Shown here: positions 18,313 through 31,908 of the stretch, piece after piece
How positions within the stretch are numbered: position 1 is the first letter of the stretch
How the letters are laid out: the number at the start of each line of letters is the position of its first letter
Source of the DNA: Fimbriimonadaceae bacterium
Lineage (GTDB): Bacteria > Armatimonadota > Fimbriimonadia > Fimbriimonadales > Fimbriimonadaceae
Assembly: GCA_023957775.1 (NCBI GenBank)
Contig: JAMLGR010000006.1
Location: 62,001-126,000 of the forward strand
Length of the DNA stretch: 64,000 nt
Direction of reading: 5' to 3'
Notes under the pieces: model-generated
The model's input: the letters and a program-made list of their open reading frames with translations, nothing else
What the model was told of the DNA's origin: nothing
Databases searched by the model: none
Program-made: the position numbers and the translations under genes

Positions 18313-18682
18313 AACTTGTTTTCGATGATCTGATTGGCGACCTTGTCGGTTCGAAGCCGCAGCGCGACCCGTGCGCGGGCCTACCCAGAGTCTGGGGGAG
18401 CACATGGCAGGGACCCCTAAGAGGGGGTTGGAGAGTGATAAGAAAACTCTATGATCGCCAATGTCGGACCACTAACTTGGTCCAAACCACCCGCCCGAAC
18501 CTCCGATGCGGCGCGCGGGTCAGTCCGAGGAGATCGCGGCGCCGTGACGTTCCTGGCCTCCGCCGGCTCCGGCTCCGTGTCGGAAGTGAACGGGGACCTC
18601 ACGCAGCCATGCGGCCCGGGCGCTTTGTTTCTTTTCCAAGCGGTCGGCGCAGGACAAAAGGCGGTAAACATGGAGGGGCGAC
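18313..18682. other. 370-nt intergenic region between divergent genes
   Basis: Holds the promoters of the pyruvate oxidase (minus) and xseA (plus). Visible: the 13-nt palindrome CCCAGAGTCTGGG at 18384-18396, a 6-bp inverted repeat ggacca / tggtcc at 18466-18483, and a Shine-Dalgarno GGAGG just before xseA. A short open frame from ATG 18451 with GATAAG 8 nt before it exists, but its codons look non-coding. No RNA motif recognised. Confidence 0.5.
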
Positions 18683-20428
18683 ATGTGGATCCGGCTTTGC
18701 GACGACGGCGACCTGGCGATCACGTTCCAGTACGACGAGGGACTGGTCGCGCTGGTGAGGACGCTCCCCGAGAAACGGTGGTTGAAGAACGACCGGTGCT
18801 GGATCGTACCGCGGGAGCACGCCGCCGTGGTGGTGGAGCGGCTCCAGCCGATGGGGTTCGTGGTCGAGCCCTCGGTGATGGAGCTGGCCGCCGACCCCTT
18901 GGCCGCTGGGCCGCCCGCGCAGACGCCGGACCTGACGGTCGCGGAGCTGAACGAGAGAGCCGCCGATGCGATCGACCGTGCGTTCACCGGTTCGGTTTGG
19001 GTCGTGGGAGAGCTGTACGACGTATCGCGCGCCCGGCGCATCGACGCGAGCGGCACCCTGCGGTTCTCGCTCGTCCAGCGCGATTCCAAGGGCAAGGAGA
19101 TCGCCCGGGTGCGCGCCGTGCTGTTTGGCGAAACCCGCAAGCGGCTCGAACGCAACCTGCAGCGCGCTGGCAGCCCGTTCGAACTGCAGGACGAAACCGC
19201 CGTGCGGCTTCGGGTGCGGCCTTCGCTCTACGCGGCGGGCGGCTCCTTTCAGATCGTCGTCGACGAACTCGACGTGGAGTACACGTTGGGAGACGTCGCG
19301 CGGCGCCGGGAAGAGGTGTTGCGGCGGCTGGTCGGTGAGGGGCTCCACAAACGCAACCCCGCCCTTGCGATTCCGCCCGCTCCCCTGCGCGTGGCGCTGA
19401 TCACCCGGGCGGAATCGGACGCGTTCCACGACGTGCGCCAGACGCTCACGGACTCGGGGCTTGCGTTTGTGCTGACCGTTGCCGACGTGCGGGTGCAGGG
19501 TCGCGACGCCGAGCCAACGATCCTGCGTGCCCTACGCCGGTTCGAAGCTCGGGCGAGGGAGTTCGACGTGCTGCTCATCTGCCGAGGTGGCGGCTCTCGC
19601 GTCGACCTATCCGCCTTTGACAGCGAGGCGATCGCCCGCTCGGTCGCGGCGCTCTCGATCCCGGTGGTGGTGGGGGTGGGACACGAGCAGGACCGCTCGG
19701 TGCTGGATGCGTGCGCGCGTTCGGTGCGCACCCCCGTCGCCGCCGCGGAACTCCTGGTCGAGGAGGTCCTTCGTTTTGAAAGGGGACTCGGGGCGGCGAT
19801 GGGTGCTGTTTCGGAACAGGCCGGAACGATGGTGCGCGCCCACGCCGAGGATCTGGCGCGCATCCGCCGGGAGCTGGCCCCGATGGCGCTCCGGGCGGCA
19901 TCGGAGGCCGAGCGCACGCTGCAAAGCCACGCGCGGGTCGCGTCCCAAGCGGCCCTCGGGACCACCCACCGAGCCCGCGCGGCGCAAGCGGCCACGGGCC
20001 ACGCGCTGGAGACCGCGACGCGTCACGCCGTGGCCCGAGAGCAGACGCGCGTCCAAACGCGAATCGAGCAGCTCCGAGGGACGTCGCGGGAGCACGTCGC
20101 GGCCCCTCGCAGGCACCTCGCAACCGCTCGCGCCGACCTGCTTCGGGGAGGCGCGGCGGTCTTGGCCATCGCCTCCGCGGGCCACGAGTCGGCCGCGCGG
20201 CAGATCGAGCTCGCGCACCCGAAACGCGTGCTGGAGATGGGTTACGCGATCCTCCGCAAGCCGTCGGGGTCCGTGATCCGATCCTCGCGCGCGGTGCGCG
20301 CGGGCGATGCCGTGGTCGCCCAACTCGCCGACGGGACCCTGTCGCTCGAAGCGAAGCACCCCGGCCCGCCGCAGCAGGAGCTCGCGCTCGATCCCGCCGG
20401 GGATAATGGGGACGAGGAGAACGTGTGA
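18683..20428 (+). CDS. xseA: Exodeoxyribonuclease VII large subunit with extra N-terminal domain
   Basis: 581 aa, longer than the usual 400-460. Residues about 95-180 form the tRNA-anticodon-like OB domain (VAELNERAADAIDRAFTGSVWVVGEL), followed by the catalytic core: LICRGGGSRVDLSAFDSEAIARSV near 295 and VVVGVGHEQDRSVLDACARSVRTPVAAAE near 328, then a long Ala/Arg coiled coil and the C-terminal strand. Residues 1-65 (ITFQYDEGLVALVRTLPEKRW, CWIVPREHAAVVVERL) are not part of ExoVII and look like the HARP-type domain seen in SMARCAL1-like helicases and some integrases. xseB overlaps its stop. Confidence 0.93.
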   Translation: MWIRLCDDGDLAITFQYDEGLVALVRTLPEKRWLKNDRCWIVPREHAAVVVERLQPMGFVVEPSVMELAADPLAAGPPAQTPDLTVAELNERAADAIDRAFTGSVWVVGELYDVSRARRIDASGTLRFSLVQRDSKGKEIARVRAVLFGETRKRLERNLQRAGSPFELQDETAVRLRVRPSLYAAGGSFQIVVDELDVEYTLGDVARRREEVLRRLVGEGLHKRNPALAIPPAPLRVALITRAESDAFHDVRQTLTDSGLAFVLTVADVRVQGRDAEPTILRALRRFEARAREFDVLLICRGGGSRVDLSAFDSEAIARSVAALSIPVVVGVGHEQDRSVLDACARSVRTPVAAAELLVEEVLRFERGLGAAMGAVSEQAGTMVRAHAEDLARIRRELAPMALRAASEAERTLQSHARVASQAALGTTHRARAAQAATGHALETATRHAVAREQTRVQTRIEQLRGTSREHVAAPRRHLATARADLLRGGAAVLAIASAGHESAARQIELAHPKRVLEMGYAILRKPSGSVIRSSRAVRAGDAVVAQLADGTLSLEAKHPGPPQQELALDPAGDNGDEENV

Positions 20429-20658
20429 AGCCCAAAGAACCCACCTATGCCGAGGCGTCCGAGCGCCTGGGCGCGATCCTGCAGCAGTTGCGCGATGGTT
20501 CGGTCGAGATCGACGATCTAGCGCAGGTCGTCGAGGAGGCCGCGACCCTGCTCAGCCACTGCCGCAAGAAGCTGCGCGCGGTCGAAGCCAAGGTCGAGAA
20601 GATCGCGGCAGAGTTAGACGAGGCGGACGACGATCCGTTCGATGGGCCGGAGGAGTAA
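20425..20658 (+). CDS. xseB: Exodeoxyribonuclease VII small subunit
   Basis: 77 aa helical hairpin that wraps the XseA coiled coil. PTYAEASERLGAILQQLRDGSVEIDDLAQVVEEAATLLSHCRKKL is the whole family core (residues 6-50). Starts at a GTG overlapping the xseA stop, so the two subunits are coupled. HIT gene follows 2 nt later. Confidence 0.95.
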   Translation: MKPKEPTYAEASERLGAILQQLRDGSVEIDDLAQVVEEAATLLSHCRKKLRAVEAKVEKIAAELDEADDDPFDGPEE

Positions 20659-21585: not shown

Positions 21586-21987
21586 GTGGCTCGCCGAACG
21601 CTGCGCGGTACGACGCTGGTGGAACTGCTGCTGACCATCACGCTGGTCGGGATCTTCAGCGCCACCCTGATGAGTGCCCTCAGCGCAGGTTCGTTCAAGG
21701 TGGAGCGCGCTCGTCAACGGGCGGTGGCCCTGGGCATCGCCCGCGAGAAGATCGAGGAGCAGCGCGTGCAGGCCCGGTCGGGCTCGATGTCTACAGGCGC
21801 CTCCAGCACCGTGGTGAGCCGTGCGTCGGGCGTTGGACCGTTCAGCGTGACGCGATCGATCTCGTCAGTGACAACGGGCGGCATCAGCGGGCTTTTCAAG
21901 GTCAACGTCCAAGTGAGTTGGACTGCGAACAACGGCGCCACGGACCAGGTCGTGCTCGAGCTGTGGATACGGGACTATGACGAGTAG
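21586..21987 (+). CDS. Minor pilin, PilV/GspI-like
   Basis: 133 aa. Prepilin N-terminus GTTLVELLLTITLVGIFSATL with the Glu at +5, then a short globular domain. Prepilin peptidase would cut after the Gly. First gene of the pilus locus; the next minor pilin overlaps it by 11 nt. GTG start; the decamer ccgacaatca ends 4 nt before it and is also found before the major pilin. Confidence 0.85.
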   Translation: MARRTLRGTTLVELLLTITLVGIFSATLMSALSAGSFKVERARQRAVALGIAREKIEEQRVQARSGSMSTGASSTVVSRASGVGPFSVTRSISSVTTGGISGLFKVNVQVSWTANNGATDQVVLELWIRDYDE

Positions 21988-22648
21988 ACGTGGATTCACC
22001 CTGGTCGAGGTGATGATCACCACCGCTTTGGTCGCGGTGGTGGTCGGCGTCCTCGCCTCGCTCTATTTCACGACGTTCAACCGCATGACCCGGGGCGTCG
22101 CGGAGGTCTCGGCGATTCTGCAAGCCCAGATGTTGCTCGATAGGATGGAGGTCCATCTTGCCCAAGCGTGCGACGCCCAACTGGTCACTTTCGGGGGCGT
22201 GACGGCGCTGAAGATCACGATGCCATCGACCGGCAAGGATAAGGACGGCGACGGGGTTCTCGATTCCTGCACGCCGACCGGCGTCAGCACTCGAGGCATC
22301 GCGAAGTTCAACCGCGGTAAACGGGTCTGGTACTACATGTCGAACGCAACAGGCAACTTCGGGACGCCCGGAAACCTCATCTACCAGGCCGCGCGAAACG
22401 ACGATGCCAACCCGACGGGTGCCGATGTCGTCACGGCTTTCAGCAACTCCGGCGGGCAGTATCGATACCCGCTCCTGGATTCGATCGGATTCAGTCTGGA
22501 CAGCCCCGTCGAGTCGGTCACGGTGACCGTGCGAACGTCGAGGCTTTACCGCAACGAGAGTGCCGCGGGCGCGGCGGCGGCGGAGAACAGGGACAACTAC
22601 GTCGTGACGTTGAGCCGCAAGGTCTGTTGGAGGAACTGGTGGAAGTGA
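21977..22648 (+). CDS. Minor pilin, PilW/GspJ-like
   Basis: 223 aa. MTSRRGFTLVEVMITTALVAVVVGVLASLYF is a canonical type III signal peptide region; cut after Gly, F at +1, E at +5. The rest is a beta-rich globular head with a DKDGDGVLD calcium-loop-like segment near residue 87. Overlaps both neighbours. Confidence 0.87.
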   Translation: MTSRRGFTLVEVMITTALVAVVVGVLASLYFTTFNRMTRGVAEVSAILQAQMLLDRMEVHLAQACDAQLVTFGGVTALKITMPSTGKDKDGDGVLDSCTPTGVSTRGIAKFNRGKRVWYYMSNATGNFGTPGNLIYQAARNDDANPTGADVVTAFSNSGGQYRYPLLDSIGFSLDSPVESVTVTVRTSRLYRNESAAGAAAAENRDNYVVTLSRKVCWRNWWK

Positions 22649-23703
22649 CCGGCACGCGGCGGAGCCGCACCCGACGGGGGAGTTCTCTGATCTTCGCGGT
22701 GATCCTGATCACGGCGATCACGATCTTCTTCGTGGGCGCGCAAGAGCTGATGATGTCGTCAGTGACCGCGCAGCAGCGTTTCGAGGACCGGACCAAGGCT
22801 CGTCTGGCGACGGAGTCCGCCGCGGCGGAAGTGATCTCGGAGTTCCGATACGGCTTGCTGACGTTGCCCGCAACGCGGGTCGTCACCGTCGCGGGCATTC
22901 CGGTCACCGCGGATGTGACGGACAACTCCGGGGTCGTTCCCAAGACGATGAAGATCACCACGTCGTTGGCGATCAAGGGTACGACGTTCAAAGACTCGGT
23001 CGTCGCCGGGCAACGCATCGACCCCTCTCCATGGGATTTCGCGCTGTTTGTCAACGGGTCAAACTCCTGGTCGGACGTGCTCACCACGGGCGCTTTGGGC
23101 GCCAATGGAAGCGCCTATTTCGGCTGGAGCGCCTGGGGCGGTTCGAACACCCACACGATCAACGGCGACCTCGAGGGCGTGGTCGATCTCTCGTCCACCC
23201 GCTTCAACGTGACCGGCACCGCGTGGGACCATTGTCCGTCGATCGCGTTCGCCACGGGCACGTGGGCAACTTACCAAGCCGCAGCCGACACGATCTACTG
23301 GAGCAACAACATGGTCGGTTACACATTCACCGACTTCGGCCCGACGAAGACCCACCTGGTCTTCCACACTGGGGATCTCAACATCGAAGGGAACTTCGTC
23401 GGCAACGGCATGATCTACGTGAACGGCAAGGTCAATATCAAGGACGCCATCACCGTCAGCGGAGGGAAGTTGGTCATTGTCGCCGAGGAAGACGTGTTGC
23501 TCAAGCAAAACGACGTTGCGGTCAACGCGTTCCTCTTTGCCGAGAACGAGTTCAAGGTCAGCAACCGGGGGAACACGGTTACGGGTGCCGTGGTCGCCAA
23601 CTCAAGCGACATCGGCAAGTACGTGACGATCATCCACGACCCCTACTTCACCGACAACCCCTCGGAGCGCGCCCGCTTCAAGTTGCCCGGATATTGGCCG
23701 TAG
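22645..23703 (+). CDS. PilX-like pilus assembly protein
   Basis: About 352 aa. Arg-rich start, then RRGSSLIFAVILITAITIFFVGAQELM, the membrane segment typical of PilX/GspK-type minor pilins, followed by a large beta-helix-like head with repeated G-x-V-x-G motifs (NIEGNFVGNGMIYVNGKVNIKD). The head resembles the DUF of polymer-forming/bactofilin-like surface domains. Start uncertain: TTG 22627, GTG 22639 or GTG 22645; I took the GTG that overlaps the upstream stop as GTGA. Confidence 0.75.
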   Translation: MTGTRRSRTRRGSSLIFAVILITAITIFFVGAQELMMSSVTAQQRFEDRTKARLATESAAAEVISEFRYGLLTLPATRVVTVAGIPVTADVTDNSGVVPKTMKITTSLAIKGTTFKDSVVAGQRIDPSPWDFALFVNGSNSWSDVLTTGALGANGSAYFGWSAWGGSNTHTINGDLEGVVDLSSTRFNVTGTAWDHCPSIAFATGTWATYQAAADTIYWSNNMVGYTFTDFGPTKTHLVFHTGDLNIEGNFVGNGMIYVNGKVNIKDAITVSGGKLVIVAEEDVLLKQNDVAVNAFLFAENEFKVSNRGNTVTGAVVANSSDIGKYVTIIHDPYFTDNPSERARFKLPGYWP

Positions 23704-23801
23704 GAATCGCGCGGCACCCTCCAATCCGGGCGCAAAAGTCCCGATAAAAACACCGTGCCCCGCGGGAGCGAACCGCGGCGCATCTGGAACGCGCCAACGT
23801 G

Positions 23802-25481
23802 ATGAACCAATCCAACGAATCCGCACTGGCTTCCGAAGCGCTCGGGATCCGCATCCGATGGGCCGTGTTGGCCGCGGCGGGCATCATGGTGTTCGACCAG
23901 ATCGGCGCGCCGGTGTTCGAGGTCGCCCTTGGCGTGATGGCGATGGCGAACCTGGCCCTGTTGAAGCTGGTCGCCAAGAAGGAGTGGTTCGCCAAGTTCG
24001 GGCGGAAGGCGGGTTGGATCGCCCGCATTGCAGACGGTGCGATCCTCACCGGCATTGGATTCCTCCCTCCGTTCGGCGCCGAGAAGTTGTGGCTTTTGAC
24101 CGTGCCGGTTCTCGTCGGGGAAGCCTTGATCAGCCGCAACAAGCGCCATGTCGCGTTGACGGCGGCGCCCATGGCCCTCATTCAAGCGGGCGTGCTCTTT
24201 GCGAACCACGCGAGCCCCACTGCGATCGCGATGTCGGTCGGCACGATCTTCGCCGGCGCGGCCGTGGGATTGGTGTTGTCCGGCTATCGGGTGCGCGAGG
24301 AGCATCTGGTCACGCACGACCGGCGCCTTTCGTCGGTGCTCGACTGCGGCGCGGCCCTTGCCGCGAGCCGCGATCTTCGCGCTACGATCCTGCACACGCT
24401 GAAGTCCGCCGTCCACGAAACCGGCGCGACGTGCGGGTATGTGATGCTGATCGACGAGTCGGGGTCGGCCACGCGGCTCGTCACCGAAGTGGCGTACAGC
24501 GTCGAAGGGAAGTTCACATTCCCCGAGGAGTTGGAGGTGGGCCAGGGTATGTCCGGCTTCGTCGCAAAGATGGGGCAGCCCGTCGCCATCACGGACGGCG
24601 GCGAGGAGAACCAGTTCGACGGCGTGACTGCGGGCGTGCACTCGGCCGCGAGCGTTCCGCTGGTGACGCGCTCCTACTCGTCCACCGCGCAGTCCGGTGC
24701 GGAGAACGTGTTGGGCGTCCTCAGCCTGCTCAGCCTCGACGGCCGCGCGGCGTTCTCGGCCGACGACATGGACTTGTTGCGGGCGCTGGGCTCGCTCATT
24801 TCGGTAACGGTTTCGAACTCGCGGATGGAGGAGCGGCAACGCACGACGTTCCTGCGGACGATGCAGAGCCTGGCGACCGCCCTCGAAGCCCGGGACGAGT
24901 ACACGCGGGGCCACTCCCACCGCGTCAGCGAGGTGTCGTTGATGATCGGCGAGAAGCTCGGCTTCGGTGCGGAGGCGCTGGAAGAGCTGCGCGTGGGGAC
25001 GATCCTCCACGACATCGGCAAAATCGGTGTTCCCGACGAGATCCTCAACAAACGGGGCCGCCTCACGGACGAGGAGTTCGAGGTCATGAAGAGCCACCCG
25101 GTCAAGGGCTACGAGATCTGCCGGCCGTTGATGCTCTCCGAGGGGATCTTGATGATCATCCGCAACCACCACGAGAAACTGGATGGAAGCGGGTACCCGG
25201 ACGGCTTGAAGGGTGGAGAACTGCCACTGTCGCTGCGCATCGTGTGCGTGGCCGACGCGTTCGATGCGATGAGTTCGAAGCGTCCCTATCGCGGCGTCAT
25301 GGAGACCTCGATGGTCCTGGCGGAACTCAGCAAGGGCGCGGGAACCCAGTTCGATCCCGTGGTGGTGGAGACGCTCAAAGAGTTGATGGATTCCCCCCCG
25401 ATGCAGGAGCTGTACGCCATGTATTGGGACGATCGCGCGCGGGCGGAAAGTCGGCAGACCCAGGAGCAGAAGGCGGCTTAG
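23802..25481 (+). CDS. Membrane GAF/HD-GYP cyclic-di-GMP phosphodiesterase
   Basis: 559 aa. N-terminal membrane region with about five to six helices (residues 15-165), GAF domain (about 180-345), then HD-GYP domain with HSHRVSEVS, LHDIGKIGVPDEIL near 402, NHHEKLDGSGYPDGL and RIVCVADAFDAMSSKRPYR. HD-GYP residues are intact, so hydrolysis of c-di-GMP is expected. It lies between the minor pilins and pilM, which suggests that pilus activity is tied to c-di-GMP. GTG at 23799 is an alternative start. Confidence 0.93.
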   Translation: MNQSNESALASEALGIRIRWAVLAAAGIMVFDQIGAPVFEVALGVMAMANLALLKLVAKKEWFAKFGRKAGWIARIADGAILTGIGFLPPFGAEKLWLLTVPVLVGEALISRNKRHVALTAAPMALIQAGVLFANHASPTAIAMSVGTIFAGAAVGLVLSGYRVREEHLVTHDRRLSSVLDCGAALAASRDLRATILHTLKSAVHETGATCGYVMLIDESGSATRLVTEVAYSVEGKFTFPEELEVGQGMSGFVAKMGQPVAITDGGEENQFDGVTAGVHSAASVPLVTRSYSSTAQSGAENVLGVLSLLSLDGRAAFSADDMDLLRALGSLISVTVSNSRMEERQRTTFLRTMQSLATALEARDEYTRGHSHRVSEVSLMIGEKLGFGAEALEELRVGTILHDIGKIGVPDEILNKRGRLTDEEFEVMKSHPVKGYEICRPLMLSEGILMIIRNHHEKLDGSGYPDGLKGGELPLSLRIVCVADAFDAMSSKRPYRGVMETSMVLAELSKGAGTQFDPVVVETLKELMDSPPMQELYAMYWDDRARAESRQTQEQKAA

Positions 25482-25482
25482 C

Positions 25483-26658
25483 ATGCCACGCGATCCTTCC
25501 AGCCGGTTCCAGCGCCGTTCGCTCGGCATCGACGTCGGCAGCCAGGCGATCAAGTTCGTCGCGGCCGATTTGGTCGCCGAGCGTGTGGACGTCCAGACCG
25601 CCGGCTCGTTCACCATCCCCCTCGGTTTGGTGACCGATGGAATCGTGCGCGATCCCAAGCGCTTCGGCCGCTCGGTGCGGGCGCAGTTGCTCGAAGCCGA
25701 GGTCGCCTGCACCTCCACCGTGTTCTCGGTTCCGAGCAACCTCGCGGTGCTTCGTTGGCTCAACATGCCGCTCCTCGAGCCGGACGAGCTGCGCGAGGCC
25801 GCGCGGTTCAAGGTCAAACGCCACCTCCCGTTCCCGGTCGAGGATGCGTACGTGGAAGCCTCGCCTCCCGAGTCGGTCGACGAAGAGGGGCAGGGCCCCG
25901 CGCTGATCATCGCGGTGCGGCGGGACGTGGTGGACTCGCGCGCGGAAGGGCTCGAATGCGCCGGACTGGAGCCGATCGGGGCGGAGTTGGAGGCCCAGGC
26001 CATCCTTCGCGTGGCGGAGCGAAGACTGGGTGAGCAGAGCGCGCTTTGGCGCGACGCCTCGCTCACGATCATCGACGTGGGGGCGACGAACACGCACATG
26101 TACGTCGTGCAGAACCAGCAGCTCCAGTTCATCCGAGGCGTGAAGTTCGGCGCGAACCTCATCTCCCAGACCGTCGCGGACGCGCTGGACCTGGCGACCG
26201 AGGAGGCCGACGCCCTCTTGAGCCGCCCCGAGACCGTCTTGAACCCCGACGGGGTGCTTCACCTGTGCGTCGAAGGGTTGCCCGCCTGCATGCGGATCCA
26301 ACCGGCGCTCGAGAGGCTCACGCGCGAGTTCCTCCGGCTGTTGCGCTACTTCCGGTCGCTGCATCCCGAACGGAGCTATGCGGGCATTCTCGACCACGTG
26401 CTCGTGTGCGGAGGACTCGCCAGCCTGAACGGGTTCGCCGAATACCTGGAGCAGGAGCTGGGCCTGCGCGTCGAGCGCGCCCGACCGTTTGCCGGCACGA
26501 TCGCCAAATTCAGCAAGAGCTCGTTCGAAAACGTGGTGAACCGCCAGGAGGCGTACACCGTCGTGATGGGTCTCGCCCTTTCCGGGCTCGAGTCCACGCG
26601 CAAAGATCAAGGGGAGGCAGGGCTTGGACACCAGTTCGCTTGGTCGCGCGCAGCGTAG
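25483..26658 (+). CDS. pilM: Type IV pilus assembly protein PilM
   Basis: Actin-like cytoplasmic ATP-binding protein of the alignment complex, 391 aa. SLGIDVGSQAIKFVAA near 14 and LTIIDVGATNTHMYVV near 190 are the two phosphate loops; VLVCGGLASLNGFAEYLEQELG near 307 is the adenosine motif. Begins 1 nt after the HD-GYP stop and overlaps pilN by 35 nt. Confidence 0.93.
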   Translation: MPRDPSSRFQRRSLGIDVGSQAIKFVAADLVAERVDVQTAGSFTIPLGLVTDGIVRDPKRFGRSVRAQLLEAEVACTSTVFSVPSNLAVLRWLNMPLLEPDELREAARFKVKRHLPFPVEDAYVEASPPESVDEEGQGPALIIAVRRDVVDSRAEGLECAGLEPIGAELEAQAILRVAERRLGEQSALWRDASLTIIDVGATNTHMYVVQNQQLQFIRGVKFGANLISQTVADALDLATEEADALLSRPETVLNPDGVLHLCVEGLPACMRIQPALERLTREFLRLLRYFRSLHPERSYAGILDHVLVCGGLASLNGFAEYLEQELGLRVERARPFAGTIAKFSKSSFENVVNRQEAYTVVMGLALSGLESTRKDQGEAGLGHQFAWSRAA

Positions 26659-27226
26659 CACGAAGACGATCAACGTCGAGGCCAATCTGCTCTCCGAGCG
26701 GCTGACCGAGCGCGCGCGCATCGCCGAGAGCTCGCGCAACCGTCTCATCGGGCTTGGGCTGTCGCTCGCCCTCTTCCTGCTGGCCGCGCCCCCCCTCTAC
26801 CGGTACCAGGGGGCGGCGACGAGAGCCGCGCACAACGCTCAGGCGAAGGCGGACCAGTCCGCCGAGCAGCGTGCCGCGCTCGAGAAGAAGGTCGAGGAAG
26901 CTCAGCCGAAGCTGGAGGAGAGCGAATTGATGGACCGCCTGCAGAAGCAGTCGAACGGTGTGGTCGACCAGTTGGTGGGCGTGCTCAACGCCGTGCCCGC
27001 GGGCGTGGCGCTCTCCGGCGTGAAAGTCGACGTCATGGGTGGCACCCTCACCTTCCAGTGCACAGCCGAGGCGGAGAGTTTCGAGCAGGCCCAAGCGTTC
27101 CTCGCCAACGCGCGCAGCGCACCCGGTTCCAAGGATGCGTTTCTCAGCAGCGCTCGCCAGAGCGCGCAGATCGCGCCGACGGGAGTGGGCTTCGATCTGA
27201 TCAAGAAGGTGGAGTGGGCCCCATGA
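26624..27226 (+). CDS. pilN: PilN-like alignment-complex protein
   Basis: 200 aa. Cytoplasmic N-terminus with TINVEANLLSERL (the NLLP-like PilM-binding motif in modified form), one membrane helix (about 43-62), a coiled coil and a small ferredoxin-like periplasmic domain. TTG start inside pilM. Assignment rests on motif order and position. Confidence 0.8.
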   Translation: MDTSSLGRAQRSTKTINVEANLLSERLTERARIAESSRNRLIGLGLSLALFLLAAPPLYRYQGAATRAAHNAQAKADQSAEQRAALEKKVEEAQPKLEESELMDRLQKQSNGVVDQLVGVLNAVPAGVALSGVKVDVMGGTLTFQCTAEAESFEQAQAFLANARSAPGSKDAFLSSARQSAQIAPTGVGFDLIKKVEWAP

Positions 27227-27795
27227 TCCGCCACACCCTTGCCGAATCCAAAGTCAACGCGCTGCTCGGTCGCCTGGTGGTCGGATGCGCGGTCGTCTGT
27301 GCTCTCGTCCTCGCGGTCCTGGGTGCCAGCGGGCTGTACTTCGGCGCGCAACGAAGCCAAGCCGTCGAGGCGGTCCGGGCCGACAAGGATGCGATCAAGC
27401 AGGCGATGGACACCCTCGACCGGAGTCGTTCGGTAAAGGCGGTCGGAGGGGTGGAGGGTCTCGCCGCCGTCAACGCCTTCCAGCGATTCTTCGTCGAGAA
27501 GGTCACGGGGAGCGGGTGCACCGTCAAAGAGGTGGTCGCCTCGTCGGAAGGGCAGCCCTACGTGACGAAGTTCAACAAGGACACTCCGCCCAACGAGTAC
27601 GTCCAACTCGGCTTCAAGTCGTCGATCGTGGGTTCCCCGTCGCAGGTGCTCGCGGCGTTGCGTGCGTTGGGAGAGAGCCAGATCCCGTTCGAGATGGACA
27701 CCTTGACCCTGCGGCGCTCGTCGGTCGCGCAAGGGCATTCGATCCTCGAACTCGCGTTCGAGCTTCGGGTGCTGGCCAAGGGAGGTGCCGCTTGA
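27223..27795 (+). CDS. pilO: PilO-like alignment-complex protein
   Basis: 190 aa. Membrane helix at about 18-41 (VVGCAVVCALVLAVLGASGLYF), coiled coil and a periplasmic ferredoxin-like domain (EYVQLGFKSSIVGSPSQVLAALRALGESQIPF). Sits between pilN and pilP-like gene with overlaps on both sides; assignment is mainly positional. Confidence 0.78.
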   Translation: MIRHTLAESKVNALLGRLVVGCAVVCALVLAVLGASGLYFGAQRSQAVEAVRADKDAIKQAMDTLDRSRSVKAVGGVEGLAAVNAFQRFFVEKVTGSGCTVKEVVASSEGQPYVTKFNKDTPPNEYVQLGFKSSIVGSPSQVLAALRALGESQIPFEMDTLTLRRSSVAQGHSILELAFELRVLAKGGAA

Positions 27796-28403
27796 AGACC
27801 GGCGATCCCAAGAAGGTGTTGGTGCTCGTCGTGGTCGCACTGGTGGTCCTCGGGGTGGCCGTGGTGCGCATCCTCCCCAAGTCGGAGCAAGGTCCCCGTG
27901 CGGTCGAGGGCGCCGAAAAGACCGCGGATGTCGCAGCGGTGGTTTCGAGCCAGGAGCTGGTGCTTCGCGGCGATCCGTTTTACCACCCGAAGCTGGAATT
28001 GCCTTCGTCCGCGCCCGATGTGGGCGAGGCGGACCCCGCGGGCGCGGCTCCCCTGGACGTTCCTTCCGGAGGGTTGCCGAACCCGGCGAGGTGGGGCGTG
28101 CCGAGCGGCTGGATCCCGGGTCTGATCGGCATCCGCCCGTCGACGGGGGACACGGGCGACCCTGAGGAAAAGACCGGGAAGGGCCAACAAACAAAGAAGA
28201 CCCGAAAGGTCGTTTTGAACGCGGTTCTTTCGGTGGCGTCGCCCTTTGCCTACCTGTCCGTCGACGGGACCGAGTTCCGGGTCGGGATCGGTGGCGAGGT
28301 GCCTGGAATTGGAACGATCGCGGCGATCACGTCGGGTTCGGTGACCGTGGTCACAGCCCGTGGGAAGGTCGTGTTCGAGATCGGGGAAGCAGTGGAACTA
28401 TGA
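27792..28403 (+). CDS. PilP-like protein
   Basis: 203 aa. Membrane helix near residues 8-25, Pro-rich linker, and a C-terminal small beta domain (VLNAVLSVASPFAYLSVDGTEFRVGIGGEVPG) that is like the HR domain of PilP/GspC, which contacts the secretin. TTG start overlapping the pilO stop; its own stop overlaps the secretin start (ATGA). Confidence 0.72.
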   Translation: MKTGDPKKVLVLVVVALVVLGVAVVRILPKSEQGPRAVEGAEKTADVAAVVSSQELVLRGDPFYHPKLELPSSAPDVGEADPAGAAPLDVPSGGLPNPARWGVPSGWIPGLIGIRPSTGDTGDPEEKTGKGQQTKKTRKVVLNAVLSVASPFAYLSVDGTEFRVGIGGEVPGIGTIAAITSGSVTVVTARGKVVFEIGEAVEL

Positions 28404-30199
28404 GCGATTTCTTGATGGCCCTCGCGGCCGGGACAAGCCTCCTCCAAGGCGGAACGCCCCCAACGGTTTCCAAGGTGCGCCCTCAACCGACGCCGGCGGC
28501 GGTGGTTCGTCCTTCGCTGATGCCGATCGCCTTTGATTGGGCCCTGCCGGGCCCGCGGGGCCTGGCATCCCTTTCCAACGTGGAGAAGCGGGCACGGAGT
28601 CGCGACGAGGTCGAGATGCCGTTCTCGGGAGCTCCCTCCGTCCCGGCGCCCGACAAGCCCCTCGACCTCTTGGAGAGTCTGGGTTGGCGAAATCCCCTGG
28701 GATCCCCCACCCGCTTGCAGGCGTCCTTCCGGAACAGCTTCCCGGGTGCCAGTCCGACGTGGATCTCCACCCCCGCTCTGGCGCCCCGAGTTCTGGCAGG
28801 GCCCGACGAGGACTGGGCGGTTCGCCAGACCGAGCGGTTGGAAGACGTGGTGCAGGCGGCCCTTCCCGTCGCGGCTGCAGGCACGCCTCCCTCGCCTCCT
28901 CCGGGAGGCGTCAAGCGCACGGCGATGGACGAACTCATCTGCAGCCTGAGCGTCGCCGAGTGGGATCTGGCCAAGGTCCTGCAGGCGCTCTCCGTGCAGA
29001 CCCACGCGAACTTGTTGCTCCAGGCGCCGCCCGACACCAAACTCACGATCAGCCTCACGAAGGTTCCGCTGGCGGACATGCTGCGCCACATCTGCGCGGT
29101 GACGAACCTGCAGTACCTCCGCGTGGACAACACCTACATCGTGGCGGACGCGGCGAAGCTCGAGGCCGCCTATCCGGCCGAGTGGTATGCGCTGCACCCC
29201 AAACCCGACGCTCCCAAGACGGCTCCCAAAGAGGCGACGGCCACGCACGTCTATATCGCCAACTATGTGAGCTCCCAGCAGGTTGTGGAAGCGCTGAAGG
29301 GGATCTTTGGAAACCAGGGATTGACCGTGAACGCCGGACCGTCCCAGGTGACGCCGAAGATCGTCGCCCGCGACACCGGTGCCGTGACGGGCATCACGAC
29401 CGGCACGGTGTCGGCCGCACCGGGGACGGACACGGTCTCCCGAGTCGTCATCCTTCAAGGGCCCCAGGATGTGGTGGACGCCGCGCTCGAGGTGGCCAAG
29501 GCGCTCGACGTCAGCCGGCCGCAAGTCTCGATCGGGGTCGCCATCTACGACATCAACAACGATGCGGTGAAGGACCTTGGGCTGTCCTGGACGTTCGGCG
29601 ATATCGGGATTTCGGAGGGTTCGGTCGGCAAGGGCCTGAACTTCGGAGACTTCACGCGGGTGCCGCTCAGCTTCGCCGCGACGATCAGCGCGCTTGAGAA
29701 GAACGACAAGGCAAAGCAACTCGCGTCACCCAACATCTCCGTGCTCGACGGCGAGCAGGCGTTCATCCTCATCGGCAACCGCATCAACTATCCGGTGCTG
29801 ATCGGTTACACGCAGCTCAACACGCCGATCTTCGACAAAGAGACCGAGAAGGTGGGCATCTACCTGCAGGTGGCCGCGTCGGTGAGCGACTCGAACGAGA
29901 TCACCCTGAGCCTCTATCCCCAGGTGTCGTCCATCACCGGATTCTTGCAGGTAAACGGCGCAAGCTATCCCCAAATCGCCACGCGGGAAGCGCAGACGAC
30001 GCTTCGAGTCCCGAGCGGTCAGACCATCGTGATGGGCGGTTTGCTCCGGGATGAGGAGATCTCCAACATGGAGCGCGTGCCGATCCTCAGCGACATCCCG
30101 ATCCTCGGGGAGCTGTTCAAGCGCCGCAAGACCACGAAGACGTCGTCCCAGGTGCTGATCGCGATCACCCCGACCGTGATTCCCCCCAAGACGCAATGA
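28400..30199 (+). CDS. pilQ: Type IV pilus secretin PilQ
   Basis: Outer-membrane channel for the pilus, 599 aa. An N-terminal low-complexity region (1-170), STN/N0-like domain (VAEWDLAKVLQALSVQTHANLLLQ near 185), N1-type domain (THVYIANYVSSQQVVEALKGIFG), then the secretin core (SIGVAIYDINNDAVKDLGLSW, LASPNISVLDGEQAFILIGNR) ending in GGLLRDEEISNMERVPILSDIPILGELFKRR, the family signature. The N-terminus is a poor signal peptide (FLMALAAGTSLLQGG), which is odd. Confidence 0.93.
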   Translation: MSDFLMALAAGTSLLQGGTPPTVSKVRPQPTPAAVVRPSLMPIAFDWALPGPRGLASLSNVEKRARSRDEVEMPFSGAPSVPAPDKPLDLLESLGWRNPLGSPTRLQASFRNSFPGASPTWISTPALAPRVLAGPDEDWAVRQTERLEDVVQAALPVAAAGTPPSPPPGGVKRTAMDELICSLSVAEWDLAKVLQALSVQTHANLLLQAPPDTKLTISLTKVPLADMLRHICAVTNLQYLRVDNTYIVADAAKLEAAYPAEWYALHPKPDAPKTAPKEATATHVYIANYVSSQQVVEALKGIFGNQGLTVNAGPSQVTPKIVARDTGAVTGITTGTVSAAPGTDTVSRVVILQGPQDVVDAALEVAKALDVSRPQVSIGVAIYDINNDAVKDLGLSWTFGDIGISEGSVGKGLNFGDFTRVPLSFAATISALEKNDKAKQLASPNISVLDGEQAFILIGNRINYPVLIGYTQLNTPIFDKETEKVGIYLQVAASVSDSNEITLSLYPQVSSITGFLQVNGASYPQIATREAQTTLRVPSGQTIVMGGLLRDEEISNMERVPILSDIPILGELFKRRKTTKTSSQVLIAITPTVIPPKTQ

Positions 30200-31908
30200 A
30201 CCTCGATCGCTCGATCTCCGATATCTTCGTCGAGGAAGGGTACGTCACCCGCGAGGAGCTCAACCAGATCCTTGCGGAGCGGGCCGACACCCTTGAGCCG
30301 GTCGGCGACCTGCTCGTTCGGCTCAAGAAGATCACGGAAAAGCAGAAGCTCAAGTGCGTCGGGCTGCAGATGGGCGTCCCGTTCGTCGATCTGGCCAACC
30401 ACGAGCTGGACATCTCGACGGCGCGCATCATCACCCACCCCGTGGCGATCCGGCTGCTTTCGATCCCGATCGAGAAGACGGACATCGCCGCCAGCGTGGC
30501 GATGGTGAATCCGCTCGATCTGGCGGCGATCGACGATCTCGCCGCCCTGACCGGCCTCGACATCGACCCCATGCTTGCGACCGAGGAGGACATCCGCGAC
30601 GCGATCTTCCGGTCCTTCGGCGCGTACGACGACCTTGGCGAAATCGTTGGCGAGGCCGTCAAGGGGCTCGACAAAGACGGGCTCCGGATGGCGGGCGAGG
30701 ACGAGGAGGAAGAGGAGCAGGTCAACGTCGTCGAGCTCAAGGAGATCGTCGAGGGCGCTCCGGTCATCAAGCTCGCCAACATCCTCTTGACGCGAGCGAT
30801 CTCCATGCGCGCCAGCGACATCCACGTTGAGCCGCACCAGCGGCGCGTGCGCGTGCGCTTCCGCATCGACGGCTTGCTGCAGGAGGTGATGTCGATCCCC
30901 AAGGACCTGCAGCATCCGCTGGTGTCCCGCATCAAGATTCTGGCAAACCTCGACATCGCGGAGCGGCGCGTTCCCCAGGACGGCCGCTGCACGATGGTGT
31001 CGCACCAGGGCGAGTACGACTTCCGCGTGTCCACGTACCCGAGCGTCTTCGGCGAAAACGTGGTCATCCGCATCCTGGATAAGCATGCCGCGACGATCGA
31101 CCTCAACAAACTGGGCATGTCGGCCGAGAACAAGACCCGGCTCATTCCGAAGATCGAGGAGCCCCAGGGGCTGATCATCGTCACCGGGCCGACCGGCTCC
31201 GGCAAGACGACCACCCTCTACGCGGCCCTCCACCACCTGAACGCGGTGCATCGGAACATCGTGACCGTCGAGGATCCGGTCGAGTATCAGTTGGAAGGGA
31301 TCATCCAGGCCAACGTCAATCCGCGCGCCGGCATCTCGTTCGCCACGGGGCTGCGCTCGATTCTGCGGCAAGACCCCGACGTGATCCTCGTCGGCGAGGT
31401 GCGCGATGGCGAGACGGCGTCCATCGCGGTCGAAGCCGCGTTGACGGGCCACCTCGTGTTGACTTCTCTGCACTCGAACGACAGCGCCGCGGCGATCACC
31501 CGATTGATGGACATGGGCATCGAGCCGTTCTTGATCGGGTCCTCGATCACGTGCAGCGTCGCCCAGCGGCTCGTGCGCGCGTCGTGCCCCAAGTGTCTCG
31601 AAACGTACGAGCCCGAACCCGAGGTGCTCGCCAAACTCAACCTGCCCACCGACGTCCCGTATCGGCGCGGCCGTGGCTGCGAGTACTGCGCGAAGACGGG
31701 CTACCGCGGACGGATGGGCATCTACGAAGTGCTCGACGTTTCGTCCGACGTTCGCAGGATGATCCTCACCGGCAACCACGCCGCAGAGATTCGGGATCAG
31801 GCCGAGCGGCAGGGCATGACCACGTTGCGGAACGACGCTCGCGCCAAGGTGCTCGAGGGCACGACGACCATCGAGGAGGTCATCCGCGTCACCGCGGACG
31901 GAATGTAG
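30196..31908 (+). CDS. pilB: Pilus extension ATPase PilB/GspE
   Basis: 570 aa. N-terminal T2SSE_N/MshEN-type domain (1-150), an acidic linker (DEEEEEQ), then the ATPase with Asp box, Walker A GPTGSGKTTT at about 331-340, VGEVRDGETA and His box HLVLTSLHSNDS; zinc motif CPKC...CEYC near 460-500. Hydrolyses ATP to push pilins into the fibre. The c-di-GMP-binding RLG and Q residues of true MshEN domains look altered. Overlaps pilQ by 4 nt. No PilT retraction ATPase is found in this window. Confidence 0.95.
   Translation: MNLDRSISDIFVEEGYVTREELNQILAERADTLEPVGDLLVRLKKITEKQKLKCVGLQMGVPFVDLANHELDISTARIITHPVAIRLLSIPIEKTDIAASVAMVNPLDLAAIDDLAALTGLDIDPMLATEEDIRDAIFRSFGAYDDLGEIVGEAVKGLDKDGLRMAGEDEEEEEQVNVVELKEIVEGAPVIKLANILLTRAISMRASDIHVEPHQRRVRVRFRIDGLLQEVMSIPKDLQHPLVSRIKILANLDIAERRVPQDGRCTMVSHQGEYDFRVSTYPSVFGENVVIRILDKHAATIDLNKLGMSAENKTRLIPKIEEPQGLIIVTGPTGSGKTTTLYAALHHLNAVHRNIVTVEDPVEYQLEGIIQANVNPRAGISFATGLRSILRQDPDVILVGEVRDGETASIAVEAALTGHLVLTSLHSNDSAAAITRLMDMGIEPFLIGSSITCSVAQRLVRASCPKCLETYEPEPEVLAKLNLPTDVPYRRGRGCEYCAKTGYRGRMGIYEVLDVSSDVRRMILTGNHAAEIRDQAERQGMTTLRNDARAKVLEGTTTIEEVIRVTADGM

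Follow-up and report, generated by a model that had tools for sequence, protein, structure and literature searches.

Exonuclease VII (ExoVII) trims single-stranded DNA, and HARP domains are known chiefly from fork-remodelling ATPases. The HARP, HIRAN, OB and winged-helix domains are described as junction-specific DNA-binding parts of fork-reversal enzymes, and HARP itself as a sheet of five strands lying on two helices (PMC4666394); HARP domains fused to other SNF2 proteins confer annealing helicase activity (PMC4035279). The window analyzed here, a stretch of 64,000 nucleotides from a Fimbriimonadaceae bacterium, encodes a large subunit of exonuclease VII (XseA) that carries, according to sequence profiles and structure prediction, a HARP-like domain at its N-terminus. 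Both parts, exonuclease VII and HARP, are known, and it is their combination that is new; within our partial coverage of the literature, no paper joining the two was found.

The xseA gene of the window (18683–20428, + strand) encodes a protein of 581 amino acids, and a putative ribosome-binding site, GGAGG (18672–18676, + strand; sequence AAACATGGAGGGGCGACATG), lies six bases 5' of its ATG start codon. The protein scores 263.5 bits against the xseA equivalog model TIGR00237 (cut-off, 180). Because this match begins only at residue 85, and that of PF13742 at residue 84, about 80 residues precede the ordinary XseA part. The latter consists of an OB-fold single-strand-binding domain (residues 84–196; 18932–19270, + strand; PF13742, E-value = 7.8e-14) and a catalytic domain with a long helical region (residues 225–554; 19355–20344, + strand; PF02601, E-value = 1.3e-57), and xseB, for the small subunit (20425–20658, + strand; PF02609, E-value = 8.8e-13), overlaps the end of xseA by four bases. 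Residues D250, R301, H334 and D337 align with D155, R205, H238 and D241 of E. coli ExoVII (8txr numbering; 8txr is a mutant structure in which H238 is A), which we take to be the catalytic residues. The OB domain, the D/R/H/D catalytic domain and the coupled xseB are thus shared with E. coli XseA, and the window's XseA is, judging from its sequence, an intact-looking exonuclease VII large subunit, as the original prediction of standard catalytic residues and a coupled xseB had it. It differs from E. coli XseA, and from the ordinary XseA of both phyla considered below, in having a HARP-like domain of about 70 residues (residues 1–70; 18683–18892, + strand; delimited by profiles and predicted fold) and a linker modelled with low confidence (residues about 71–83; 18893–18931, + strand; pLDDT below 50 at residues 74–83). 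After this extension Pfam finds XseA domains only, and an SNF2 ATPase motor is absent from the protein.

In a scan of GTDB genomes, one close full-length relative was found, in Acidobacteria bacterium Mor1, with 39% identity over the best segment (residues 9–558) and 35% identity between the two extensions. A profile made from the window and Mor1 XseA was then run over 396 Acidobacteriota genomes. XseA was recognized in 376 of them, but only in seven (Mor1, G278, G412, G211, G134, G436 and G254) did the match begin at the model's first columns; the extended proteins score at least 513 bits and ordinary XseA at most 225 bits. An eighth Acidobacteriota case, G238, has a clearly related XseA that is cut by the end of a contig. 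In the class of Mor1 the extension occurs in seven of 41 genomes, every match lying in the XseA reading frame. The XseA proteins of the window's own phylum were surveyed for the same extension, as had been proposed: XseA was found in 99 of 291 genomes at the threshold used, and the window's genome alone (1/291) has the extension, which is therefore not a trait of the phylum but a feature of one XseA subfamily. The HARP–XseA fusion is rare, and the few bacteria that share it belong to two phyla.

The extra N-terminal residues of XseA, put at about 65 in the original prediction, number about 70, and the pattern F-x-Y-D...LVALVRTLPEKRW...CWIVPREHA is present at residues 15–47. Twelve positions besides M1, namely G9, L11, F15, D18, L21, V22, L28, R32, W33, W40, P43 and F59, are invariant between the window and the seven Acidobacteriota copies. 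An HMM built from the seven Acidobacteriota extensions alone recovers the window's XseA (domain E-value = 8e-16) as its sole match among the 514 ORFs of the window. AlphaFold2 predicts a confident fold for the extension (pLDDT 92.9, pTM 0.80), with strands at residues 2–5, 11–14, 32–34 and 39–42, a short strand at 60–61, and helices at 19–25, 44–57 and 63–70. The model of full-length XseA is poor (pTM 0.40) except in the extension and in some stretches of the catalytic domain, and so we make no claim on the packing of the domains. Since the conserved block begins at about residue 8, the start codons of the Acidobacteriota relatives correspond to residue 1 of the window's XseA and the predicted fold takes in residues 2–70, translation is unlikely to begin near residue 90. 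From its conservation and its modelled fold, the extension is a distinct domain and more than a product of chance.

When searched alone, the window's extension gave nothing useful from Pfam, NCBIfam or PDB sequence searches, and the case for HARP was accordingly built through its relatives. The Pfam HARP family (PF07443) matches six of the eight members of the extension set with E-values below 1 (best, 2e-4), the window's copy not being among the six; the Mor1 extension scores 15.8 bits, against a curated cut-off of 25. A PF07443 search of the window's genome gave no match, but the same search over the whole genome of Mor1 did not report the extension of its XseA either, so the silence of PF07443 in the window's genome is uninformative. 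The top PDB sequence match of the extension profile is 4o66, the HARP domain of SMARCAL1 (E-value = 0.015). The window's domain shares with SMARCAL1 HARP the pattern F/Y-D/N...L...K.LP.R..........W, nearly gapless over the core, and a similar fold; the two differ in that identity in structural alignments is only about 12–14%, the window's domain falls below Pfam's curated score, and the protein that carries it is an exonuclease and has no ATPase motor.

Further evidence comes from HARP-like domains on recombinases, whose existence had been anticipated. A Pfam HARP search of Acidobacteriota gave four matches, one of which (L094) exceeds the curated cut-off, and the three of the four for which the full frame was read encode tyrosine recombinases in which a HARP-like domain at the N-terminus is followed by SAM-like and integrase domains (L094, 1372–2496; L095, 148–1194; L097, 568–1689); in L095, the integrase and HARP domains are both confirmed by Pfam. 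These three domains were gathered through Pfam HARP, independently of XseA. In the profile–profile comparison that had been suggested for the N-terminal residues, hhalign aligned this recombinase set with the XseA extension profile at a probability of 97.7, an E-value of 1.7e-12 and a score of 63.4. The reversed profile scored 8.7, none of 200 column shuffles exceeded 16.4, and other parts of XseA gave scores of 6 to 11. The recombinase HMM also recognizes the window's copy itself (24.3 bits, E-value = 2e-6; 2000 shuffled sequences gave at most 7.8 bits). The recombinase domains are thus clearly homologous to the XseA extension and occupy the same N-terminal position, with SAM-like and integrase domains as their fusion partners where that of the window is fused to the OB and ExoVII domains. 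A tblastn search of phages and plasmids with one extension found a phage HepA-related protein and the N-termini of SNF2-type helicases. SNF2-type helicases such as gp25 of Acinetobacter phage JeffCo and WP_207531430.1 of Pontibacillus have the same short domain before the catalytic part, and the N-terminus of XPB appears, from the models, to belong to the same fold class as the window's extension, the partners in these helicases and in XPB being ATP-driven translocases. A search of PHROGs gave weak unknowns only, a plasmid search gave no close DNA match, and a search of viral contigs gave no relative. Weak HARP-like coding matches were seen in the Ensifer plasmids NZ_CP015882, NZ_CP121310 and NZ_CP030264, at places where the incomplete plasmid table lists no gene.

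The structure prediction called for in the original prediction points the same way. In a Foldseek search of the PDB, the best eight matches were all to the XPB N-terminal domain or to 4o66, with weak E-values of 0.2 to 1. The topology of the model fits HARP as described in the literature (PMC4666394), with a further helix at residues 63–70. In VIA-align, XPB and 4o66 gave Z-scores of 6.2 and 4.2, but because the apparently unrelated GATOR2/CASTOR1 and eIF1 entries score comparably, at 5 to 6, the case for HARP could not rest on the fold match by itself. Among viral structure models the best match had a TM-score of 0.83, and HepA-related and SWI/SNF-named proteins were among the top six. Sequence, profile and fold therefore agree with the HARP resemblance first suspected from the letters, although the window's copy lacks a Pfam HARP match and the Mor1 copy falls below the cut-off. 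On these comparisons we conclude that the extension is HARP-like and a homologue of the HARP-type domains that recombinases and helicases carry, while formally remaining under the Pfam HARP cut-off.

As to function, we find it reasonably probable that a HARP-type domain (of the SMARCAL1 HARP/XPB N-terminal class) added to ExoVII steers the enzyme to junctions of single- and double-stranded DNA. In the models, the HARP-like module would precede the OB domain and be joined to it by a flexible linker. By analogy with the fork-reversal enzymes, the module may bind single/double-strand junctions (forks, flaps or branched ends), and such binding would recruit the ExoVII complex to the adjacent single-stranded tails, which would then be trimmed. 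A more specific form of this reading, to which we give tentative credence somewhat short of even, is a structure-guided ExoVII in which HARP, as a portable reader of fork and flap junctions, would direct motor-free trimming at stalled forks. Against a junction reader stands the fact that the HARP literature compared here concerns motor ATPases, whereas ExoVII has no motor, and against the HARP assignment itself stand the missing Pfam match of the window's copy, the scores of its relatives below or near the cut-off, and the weak E-values of the PDB fold matches. The presence of HARP on a motor-less exonuclease, alongside its kin on recombinases, suggests a general plug-in for recognizing branched DNA, and the fusion may be informative about the sites at which exonuclease VII works in cells.

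The best surviving alternative, which we hold to be rather unlikely, is that the domain is HARP-like by descent but works through protein contacts or in assembly, for example with a replisome, with a recombination partner or within the large ExoVII complex. That the domain is compact and autonomous and is attached through a linker would suit such a role, and a [G/P]LF motif in six of the seven Acidobacteriota linkers (the window's has none) hints at N-terminal partner contacts; however, no partner is known, and the relatives whose partners can be read are DNA-acting fusions, namely tyrosine recombinases and SNF2 helicases, which favours a DNA-linked role. Improbable, in our estimation, is the alternative that the domain comes from a wider, DUF5710-like superfamily whose core is W...W..P, in which case the likeness to HARP would be superficial and the domain a general nucleic-acid or regulatory module. 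DUF5710 (PF18974) does match three of the eight members, weakly (best E-value, 5.3e-3) and without the window's copy, and DUF5710 proteins are among the weak fold matches, but HARP matches more members and matches them better (6/8; 2e-4), and HARP and XPB structures head the PDB lists; the DUF5710-like and HARP readings may also not be mutually exclusive. That the start codon was mis-called, the genuine N-terminus lying near residue 85, is scarcely credible, even though ordinary XseA begins at about that residue and every other XseA of the window's phylum lacks the extension, because the ATG has a good ribosome-binding site, GC3 is 0.94 across the extension, and the extension is conserved between phyla and folds confidently in AlphaFold.

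A tree of 55 XseA core sequences places all nine extended rows (the window, the seven Acidobacteriota proteins with the extension and the truncated protein of G238) in one clade (support 100/94), within which the window's XseA branches outside the Acidobacteriota members. The domain was probably added to XseA a single time, in the common ancestor of an XseA subfamily that today occurs in an Acidobacteriota class and in the window's genome. Downstream of xseAB in the window lies a type IV pilus cluster (pseudopilins to pilB; 21586–31908) that is conserved in genomes of the same family, and in four same-family stretches examined, neither xseA nor xseB was found beside it. The absence of xseAB from beside this conserved cluster in the relatives suggests horizontal gain, and it is likely that xseAB was gained horizontally by the window's lineage. 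The HIT gene downstream is too divergent in the relatives to serve as a synteny marker. Contamination of the assembly was considered and rejected: the contig is 222 kb long, the pilB gene that lies 12 kb downstream shares 76% identity with a same-family genome, and the 4-mer composition of the window fits its own genome (0.91–0.93) more closely than it fits Acidobacteriota (0.75–0.84), so the contig is native. The simplest account is that the fusion arose in a single event and that the window's lineage acquired xseAB horizontally.

Nearly all genomes of the window's family and order lack exonuclease VII. Among the same-family genomes searched with the XseA family model, G016 is the only one besides the window's with a strong match, and the order adds only G055 and G086. 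The XseA of G016 (L140; contig C40, about 1051–2307) is very divergent, with about 28% identity, and has no HARP-like extension; in the tree it has an end branch of 2.4 and adjoins the extended clade with weak support (88/69). In the linkers of L034, L039, L040, L041, L042 and L043, that is, in all the extended Acidobacteriota copies except L044, the [G/P]LF motif takes the form of a short PGLF(D/E), RGLFD or LPLF, which, but for the usual leading Q, recalls the tail of a clamp-binding peptide.
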